Shown: one piece after another, positions 9,345 through 50,474 of the stretch | Layout: each line of letters starts with the position of its first letter | How positions within the stretch are numbered: position 1 is the stretch's first letter | Source of the DNA: Nostoc sp. JL34 | GTDB taxonomy: Bacteria; Cyanobacteriota; Cyanobacteriia; Cyanobacteriales; Nostocaceae | Assembly: GCF_017114945.1 (NCBI RefSeq) | Contig: NZ_JABXKQ010000156.1 | Coordinates: 1-64,000, forward strand | DNA: 64,000 nucleotides | Reading direction: 5' to 3' | Notes under the pieces: model-generated | The model's database searches: none | What the model saw: the letters and a program-made list of their open reading frames with translations, nothing else | What the model was told of the DNA's origin: nothing | Made by a program: the position numbers and the translations under genes

Positions 9345-9424
9345 TCATTTGTCCTTTGTCATTTGTCCTAAGCTAATGACCAATGACTAATTACTAATGG
9401 CTAATAACTACTAATGACTAATGA
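9345..9424. repeat. STRR tract running into the recO start codon
   Basis: Heptamers of the GTCATTTGT/GTCCTTTGT type followed by inverse copies (TAATGACCAATGACTAAT). The last copy supplies the ATG of recO itself, so no normal ribosome-binding site is seen directly before that gene. Confidence 0.85.
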
Positions 9425-10413
9425 GTAGAACCTACAAAGCAACTGGTATTAATCTTAAAACCCAGGCGCTAGGAGAATCGGATAAAATAGTGACGATTTT
9501 GACACGAGAATTCGGTTTGATTCGAGCCGTGGCTCCAGGGTCACGTAAGCACAACTCCAGCCTGGGCGGTAGGAGTGGAATGTTCGTTGTGAATGAACTA
9601 TTGATTGCCAAAGGGCGATCGCTTGATAAAATTACTCAAGCACAGACGTTAAAAACTTATCCTGGTTTAGCTAAAGATTTGGGAAAACTGGCTGCCAGTC
9701 AATATTTAGCAGAAATAGTTCTGTGTGAAGCTTTGAGCGAACAACCCCAAGAAGAACTTTATGATTTGTTCAACGAACATCTCCATCGCTTAGAGGCGGT
9801 GTCTAGTGCAAATCTATCTGGTGTTTTGCCTCATCTGGCTCATGGTGTATTTCACCTTTTGGCCTTAGCAGGACTGACGCCGCAAGTGCAAATCTGTTGC
9901 CTATCTCAGCACCCCCTCAAACCAGACTTTACAGATCCCAACTGGCAGGTAGGATTTAGTATCCCTGCGGGTGGAACGGTTTCCTTAGAAGCTAGGGAAC
10001 GTTTACGAAAAGAGGAGAGGGAGATGAGGGCAGAGGGGCAGAGGAGCAGAGGAGCAGAGGAGCGGGGGAAGATTAATAACCAATTCCCTATGCCTAATGC
10101 CCCATCCACAATGACGCCAGTTGCTTCAACGGAGGGAACCTCCGCAACGCACTGGCTCCCCAATGCCCAAACAATTGTTGTGCATCGGCAAGAAATACCT
10201 GTGATTTCTTGCCGTCTAAGTGCTATGGAACTGACTTTGCTTCAACATCTGTCACAACCAGAGATAATGCAAATTGATGGTGCTAGAGATCATGACTGGT
10301 TATCTGTTGAGCAGATTTTGCGCCAGTATGCTCAGTATCAATTAGGTCGCCCTATTCGCTCTGCTACCTTGATCGACTCTTATTTTGCTGCCAACCATGA
10401 TGCAACCGTCTGA
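9421..10413 (+). CDS. recO: DNA repair protein RecO with an internal repeat-derived insertion
   Basis: RecO acts in the RecFOR pathway, helping load RecA on single-stranded DNA covered by SSB. The N-terminal OB fold (about 1-80: [20 protein letters not shown] and the GRSL stretch) and the following helical region are clear. Between about residues 196 and 253 lies a low-complexity segment ([14 protein letters not shown], then [12 protein letters not shown]) that looks like translated intergenic repeat DNA; the normal RecO sequence resumes at [22 protein letters not shown]. At 330 residues it is longer than the usual 240-280. The reading frame stays intact. The start ATG lies inside a repeat tract. 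It overlaps the MFS gene by 17 bases. Confidence 0.88.
10009..10180. repeat. Repeat-derived insert inside recO
   Basis: Purine-rich copies of GCAGAGGAGCAGAG, then CCCTATGCCTAATGCCCC-type sequence, then a 47-base palindromic module (10115-10161) that starts CGCCAGTTGCTTC and ends GCACTGGCTCCCC. The ends of that module match those of the 46-base modules at 38618-38663 and 61327-61372. The whole insert keeps the recO frame. Confidence 0.75.
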
Positions 10414-49976: not shown

Positions 49977-50208
49977 GCCATTAGTGTCAAGTTAAGCTCA
50001 AACTTCCTATGTCAATAAGTATTTATGCTTAACAATTTGGTTTGAAAGGGACAAAAAACGAACTTTTTCAGGGACTATTAATGCTTTGTTTATTAGCATC
50101 ACTCCCAGCTTGCGTATAAAATTCAGAAAAAAGTTCACCTTTATACTTCGTTCCTAACAAAACCTATCGTTGACAAATGGGTTTTAACCTTAAGTTGACA
50201 CTAATGGC
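49977..50208. repeat. 232-bp unit 1 with 20-bp terminal inverted repeats
   Basis: Begins GCCATTAGTGTCAAGTTAAG and ends CTTAAGTTGACACTAATGGC. It differs from unit 2 at seven positions by eye (about 97% identity). The ends match the IS end at 898-917. Confidence 0.9.
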
Positions 50209-50242
50209 ATCTTGCCCGCCTTCGACTACGGGCGGGCGAGAC
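50209..50242. repeat. 34-bp hairpin spacer between the units
   Basis: CTTGCCCGCC and GGCGGGCGAG pair, with one mismatch, around TTCGACTACG, a dispersed repeat sequence. Confidence 0.7.
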
Positions 50243-50474
50243 GCCATTAGTGTCAACTTAAGCTCAAACTTCCTATGTCAATAAGCATTTAGGCTTAAAA
50301 ATTCGGTTTGAAAGGGACAAAAAACGAACTTTTTCATGGACTATTAATGCTTTGTTTATTAGCATCACTACCAGCTTGCGTATAAAATTCAGAAAAAAGT
50401 TCACCTTTATACTTCGTTCCTAACAAAACCTATCGTTGACAAATGGGTTTTAACCTTAAGTTGACACTAATGGC
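50243..50474. repeat. 232-bp unit 2 with 20-bp terminal inverted repeats
   Basis: Begins GCCATTAGTGTCAACTTAAG and ends CTTAAGTTGACACTAATGGC, a perfect 20-base inverted pair. Same orientation as unit 1, no coding capacity. Confidence 0.9.

Follow-up and report, generated by a model that had tools for sequence, protein, structure and literature searches.

STRRs are tandem repeats of 7-nt units that are dispersed in the genome, and the elements called SDR (small dispersed repeats) are 21-27 nt in length. Those of Nostoc were reportedly characterized by Elhai et al. in 2008 as very small elements that are embedded in heptameric repeats and that show nested insertions and compensatory changes. Passages of two papers on these elements give the size of an SDR as 'some 20 bp' (PMC2884548) and describe the precise insertion of SDR5 in HIP1 (PMC4390886). 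Another 7-nt repeat of Nostoc PCC 7120, GGGGA(C/T)T, is 68% intergenic, and a greater fraction of it lies within genes than in Xanthomonas, according to PMC4692102. A part of PMC3488679 describes the P6b loop of the Nostoc tRNA-Leu intron as one tolerated hypervariable loop, which contains degenerate 7-nt repeats and other indels.

Some palindromic repeats lie within protein genes. The RPEs of Rickettsia are presented, in the relevant passages of two papers, as dispersed palindromes located in frame in unrelated protein genes (PMC10969869; PMC3733652), which measure about 150 bp and encode a conserved peptide (PMC10969869). Many of the intragenic GTAG/CGTC REPs are found in genes for DNA synthesis and repair (UvrA, RecBCD, DnaE2, and others), and in the recB genes of two Xanthomonas they occupy about the same site (passages of PMC3733652; the main text of that paper has no word beginning recJ or recG, and the passages listed for words beginning 'reco' name no recO gene). 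Finally, REPINs, which a passage of PMC3116915 describes as short, hairpin-forming mobile repeats, are also described for Nostoc punctiforme.

The recO linker of Nostoc sp. JL34

The window analyzed here is a stretch of 64,000 nucleotides from Nostoc sp. JL34 (contig NZ_JABXKQ010000156.1, positions 1-64,000, forward strand); other loci and genomes are given by L and G numbers. Its recO gene contains these features:

9421-10413, + strand: intact recO open reading frame, 330 aa, with profile matches
9997-10179, + strand: hypervariable repeat-derived linker, aa 193-253 (83 distinct linkers between conserved flanks)
10011-10063, + strand: 8-nt purine tandem repeat AGAGGAGC, about 7 degenerate copies (TRF score 64)
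10071-10088, + strand: AT-rich spacer GATTAATAACCAATTCCC, between the purine and pyrimidine repeats
10086-10113, + strand: degenerate 7-nt pyrimidine repeat, first part (CCCTATG CCTAATG CCCCATC CACAATG)
10114-10158, + strand: P45, a 45-bp palindromic element of exactly 15 codons (empty sites in L005 and L007)
10159-10169, + strand: 7-nt repeat, resumed after P45
10180-10413, + strand: conserved RecO C-terminal segment, which continues the frame of the linker (invariant residues; sum dN / sum dS 0.32)

The product is identified as RecO by the Pfam profiles RecO_N (residues 1-80, 76.8 bits) and RecO_C (residues 85-197, 56.5 bits), both above their cut-offs, and it also matches TIGR00613 (residues 6-163, 72.7 bits; cut-off 48.7). 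A first, sequence-only reading had taken RecO to be single copy and had placed a stretch of intergenic-type repeat inside the gene, at 10009-10180, with the frame kept. Both claims hold, as RecO_C has one match in the whole 7.8-Mb genome and the open reading frame is intact; over 10009-10180 there are no stops in the frame used, and 2 and 3 in the other forward frames. The flanks of the linker are conserved in an alignment of 33 RecO. Relative to 15 relatives, sum dN / sum dS is 0.12 for the N-terminal part of the gene and 0.32 for the C-terminal part, and this purifying selection past the linker supports the view that translation probably proceeds through it. (A profile search with the 33-RecO alignment found no solved RecO in the PDB at E 0.01, and the AlphaFold2 model made from this alignment, with a mean pLDDT of 44.7, was discarded.) At its other end, the gene also touches a repeat: the recO start codon lies at the end of a CTAATGA-type heptamer array (window 9373-9424), which is seen by eye in most of 34 relatives as well, and unit changes in this array would alter the sequence that precedes the start.

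Within the linker, the purine repeat has a period of 8 by TRF, rather than the 9 first read, and this period is beyond chance, since none of 1000 dinucleotide shuffles reaches its score. The 7-nt part in the window scores 5, which is not significant by the shuffle test; clear 7-nt arrays are present at the same place in relatives (e.g. L016, L019) and, by TRF, elsewhere in the window. As judged by the tandem 7-nt, STRR-type pattern, then, the heptamer part of this linker is degenerate, and its significant array, with a unit of 8 nt, is not a heptamer. Because periods of 7 and 8 nt are not multiples of a codon, such repeats arise as DNA. P45 lies between the ATG and the CCC of the 7-nt repeat. 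The palindromic module of the sequence-only reading is thus present, but its length is 45 bp, as defined by the empty sites in L005 and L007, and not 47. (Elsewhere in the window, positions 49977-50474 hold a 266-bp unit in about 1.9 tandem copies with 96% matches.)

Dispersal of the linker DNA and of P45

A BLAST search of positions 10000-10195 against the genome of the window gives 59 matches, itself included (E up to 10), and the linker is therefore composed of dispersed repeat DNA, as its intergenic-type appearance had indicated. The same plan, in which a purine repeat is joined through a TTAATAACCAAT spacer to a 7-nt repeat, recurs at L116, L122, and L125, among 29 other loci read (some overlapping). 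The repeats that write the RecO linker are of a kind that mostly lies between genes. One of these composite 8-nt/7-nt repeats, at L116:1501-1595, is located in a membrane protein gene of the window's genome that has no Pfam match; apparently the same gene in another species (L246) has P45 at a like place.

Linkers of other species differ in how well they match their own genomes. That of L022 gives 61 matches, itself included; the closest of the others is 98% alike over 124 nt, which proves little because this copy is at a contig end. Apart from itself, the linker of L028 finds five matches of weak to moderate strength, and that of L060 (HT-58-2) finds none. Although L060 seemed by eye to carry something like P45 and is among the 7 recO rows that a regular expression for P45 marked, it was dropped as a P45 carrier for lack of any other match in its genome.

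Within the genome of the window, no second near-exact P45 is found at up to 3 mismatches (the sole match is itself), and the other P45 matches found by BLAST are 84-88% alike. Using a gapped pattern, 163 copies are detected in 25 of 27 Nostoc genomes; the reversed pattern, used as a control, finds 0 copies in the same 27. The element folds into two stacked stems (-21.3 kcal/mol as RNA, -11.5 as DNA). Among 34 distinct bare copies compared by eye, the outer stem occurs as GCCAGT/ACTGGC, GGCAGT/ACTGCC, and GTCAGT/ACTGAC and the inner stem as CGGAGG/CCTCCG, CGGGGG/CCCCCG, and CGCGGG/CCCGCG, variants that look compensatory. Many of the copies (those of the CAAGTC type) have a shorter inner stem, and for this reason the RNAalifold consensus of all 34 retains no more than two inner pairs besides the outer stem. 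P45 is open in five of its six frames. Some copies contain a further, nested insert: outside genes this can be +25 (7 copies of 62 nt), while in the few cases within genes the inserts are multiples of three, either +24 (L261, L274, and the recO gene L008) or +30 (the recO genes L003 and L083).

Variation of the loop among relatives and across the class

For comparison, 98 of 111 RecO loci were read, and 83 linkers were counted (the window, 80 named loci, L090, and L099); the 13 loci outside the reading are all G loci, and the counts also omit other G loci, many of which duplicate named records. Each of the 83 linkers is distinct; their lengths are 19-80 aa, with a median of 38. Significant tandem periods are present in 36 of the 83, versus none of 83 core segments of the same length from the same genes, and 31 of the 36 are periods of 7, 8, or 9 nt. 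Conversely, 47 linkers have no significant tandem period and 40 fit none of the repeat signatures used (the 7-nt signature being a loose one), which indicates that many linkers are decayed repeats or have another origin.

The P45 site is seen in several states. In L005 and L007 it is empty, with ATG followed directly by CCC; in the window and L004 it holds P45, exactly 15 codons; in L003 and in L083, which duplicates the record L002, P45 contains a nested 30 nt; and in L008 it contains a nested 24 nt that differs from the 30-nt insert. Since the N-terminal part of recO in the window differs from that of L004 or L005 by a synonymous divergence of only 0.05-0.08, turnover of the linker is fast. 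The insert had been expected to be absent or variable in length in close relatives and to lack conservation at the level of residues, and the relatives bear out both: P45 is absent from two of them, and 83 distinct linkers stand between conserved flanks. On a recO tree of 52 rows, 6 of them with P45, six changes are needed, three of which are forced by starred branches. No clustering of P45 is detected on this tree, as 500 of 500 label shuffles score as low, and gains and losses are indistinguishable.

A broader view comes from 60 further RecO, picked for spread among the 140 of 145 genomes of the class Cyanobacteriia that have a match. The corresponding position, bounded by GFSxxAGG and the ELxxLQ helix, holds from about 0 to 130 aa in these proteins (by eye), and the RecO in which the loop is nearly absent are mainly those of small genomes (again by eye). 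The sequence-only reading had held that the repeat interrupts RecO between its helical core and its C-terminal segment. This location is correct, but the protein entered was not a continuous one, and a fresh interruption of RecO is ruled out by the length-variable loop of the 60. Because the loop varies across the class, the repeats entered a loop that was already free. At the loop position, the RecO of L223 has CDPC, which we take to correspond to the metal-binding turn of other RecO; this suggests that the loop may replace that turn.

In-frame repeats in other proteins

To see where P45 lies, 90 of the 163 copies were inspected, consisting of 30 pattern-search loci and 60 selected regions, with G203 (46 copies) represented by one. 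Fifteen of these are in open frames of at least 217 aa and the other 75 are outside long open frames; only spanning open frames were taken in, and genes broken by P45 would escape such a count. Profiles support 13 of the 15 (all except L246 and L167), in eight protein families: Lnt (three), RecO, LeuA-type, and Uma2 (two each), and a hybrid histidine kinase, a polyketide synthase, a penicillin amidase, and a glycogen debranching enzyme (one each). The two RecO are the window and L153, the latter being the recO also recorded as L004 and assigned without a scan of its own. P45 is read in forward frame 1 in RecO and the debranching enzyme, forward 0 in Lnt, reverse 0 in the kinase, LeuA-type, and Uma2 genes, reverse 1 in the synthase, and reverse 2 in the amidase. 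Consequently, the DNA element, and not a peptide, is the unit. Bare and +24 forms of P45 are found in different species in both the LeuA-type gene (L259 and L274, respectively) and Lnt (L147 and L238 bare, L261 +24). The genome of the window also has a decayed P45 (L297:1585-1629, G000:C123), which lies in frame in the receiver domain of a hybrid histidine kinase.

In the same genome, repeats of these kinds extend through several proteins, among them RecJ (L129), RecG in its N-terminal part (L133), LdpA, and a GNAT. When ten repeat-bearing ORFs were scanned with profiles (nine of the 8-nt type and one with the palindrome, L297; L139 was left out), 9 had Pfam matches; in L136 and L140 the repeat is close to an end and may not be internal. 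Across the genus, the hypervariable loop of RecJ that is flanked by RPTILLSTE and ARGSARSV (L298-L324; G000:C162:17560-20271 in the window's genome) has 10-93 aa with a median of 27, and 22 of the 26 readable loops (one of the 27 holds N) have a significant 7-, 8-, or 9-nt period. For RecG (L326-L352; G000:C89:128959-130800 in the window's genome), the linker after YLSQLQQ was captured by pattern in 9 of 27, with 50-87 aa including flanks; these nine appear repeat-like and variable by eye, and two of them differ by one residue. (In the five-contig genome G187, at C1:654072-656433, RecJ is seemingly split near residue 800 into open frames of 691 and 120 aa.)

RecO, then, is not special: the same kinds of in-frame repeats are present in RecJ, RecG, LeuA-type, Lnt, polyketide synthase, and other proteins. 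The grouping of RecO, RecJ, and RecG as repeat-bearing repair genes is a lead only. It is unlikely that the mobile and tandem repeats of Nostoc make translated linkers preferentially in proteins of recombination repair, with the repeats and the enzymes that handle their instability co-evolving in a way that tunes or switches repair.

Origin of the linker

Very probably, dispersed repeats repeatedly enter the RecO loop at the level of DNA, and this loop is constrained mainly in frame. In such a process, the loop of cyanobacterial RecO, which joins the helical core to the C-terminal helices, would be held mainly to a frame rather than to a sequence. In Nostoc it would have been filled by three parts that co-occur elsewhere in the genome: a purine array with 8-nt units, an AT spacer, and a pyrimidine array with 7-nt units. 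P45, as a presumably mobile element, would then have entered the last of these arrays, and P45 would in turn have received a second element, of 24 or 30 nt, in sister species. Insertions and unit changes that keep the frame and are free of stops would be retained and translated as a low-complexity, probably disordered linker, with RecO function presumably unchanged, and alleles that break the frame would be purged. The openness of P45 in five of six frames would help its entry into coding loops.

An unlikely alternative is selection at the protein level for a longer or charged linker, with the repeats serving as raw material for an adaptive tuning of RecO. A linker is indeed kept in most of the 60 class-wide RecO, falling to near nothing mainly in small genomes (by eye), and many linkers have a charged start and a proline-rich end; however, linker length varies about fourfold over the 83 RecO, and the same repeats enter unrelated proteins. 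Still less probable is a phase-variable contingency switch, in which the number of 7- or 8-nt units changes by slippage, the frame shifts, and RecO is alternately lost and restored, with a change in recombination capacity. The gain or loss of one such unit would break the recO frame, the repeats vary between close relatives, and similar arrays are present in RecJ and RecG. Yet, with one genome per species, there is no recO off allele among the matches listed (the open frames have at least 287 aa and no internal stops), the window's own array is short, with degenerate units, and the top period scores of the linker set belong to three 9-nt arrays, which are in frame (L022, L024, L012). It is highly improbable that the linker is a functional, sequence-specific RecO domain or peptide that is repetitive only in look: although it is present in all 83 of the Nostocales-type RecO compared and several Nostoc share an INN with Q or D after it, conservation at the residue level is absent (83 of 83 distinct, 19-80 aa), INN is the translated spacer, which is found in other genomic copies, and the P45 peptides differ between proteins.

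Repeated entry of dispersed DNA into a loop constrained in frame would make these genes a multi-species record of how dispersed repeats turn into protein in fixed loops of repair enzymes, in which the site is seen empty, filled, and filled twice over and one 45-bp element is read in five frames. It also carries a warning, as protein alignments and models of Nostocales can contain linkers derived from repeats.

Comparison with known systems

Among the literature matches listed, which mostly do not cover subscription papers, neither this RecO linker nor this 45-bp element is named. In its location, P45 resembles the Rickettsia RPEs, in that it is found in frame in unrelated protein genes, here eight profile-supported families including RecO. 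It differs from them in size (45 bp versus about 150 bp) and in that its five frames yield unrelated peptides, while a conserved peptide is reported for the RPEs; consequently, spread at the level of DNA and function of a peptide can be told apart better with P45 than in Rickettsia. Like the intragenic REPs, it is a short palindrome in frame in repair genes, but when compared by their ends, the 34 distinct bare copies with 4-nt flanks lack the unpaired GTAG or CGTC at one end. A REPIN is a REP doublet with an associated RAYT transposase, and P45 is likened to this class by the description of a hairpin, not by sequence. With 45 bp, P45 exceeds the size of an SDR; the nested 24-nt insert fits that size, as judged by size alone.

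The 7-nt repeats invite similar comparisons. The tRNA-Leu P6b loop is an RNA loop that has no reading-frame constraint, whereas the RecO loop lies within an open reading frame. The GGGGA(C/T)T repeats differ in unit from those of the RecO linker, and the part of their published account drawn on here has no in-frame reading in named proteins. Taken together, palindromes that lie in frame, repair genes included, are already known from the Rickettsia RPEs and the intragenic REPs; the form seen at recurrent RecO and RecJ loops of Nostoc, which is composite, nested, and read in five frames, has no counterpart among the literature matches listed.
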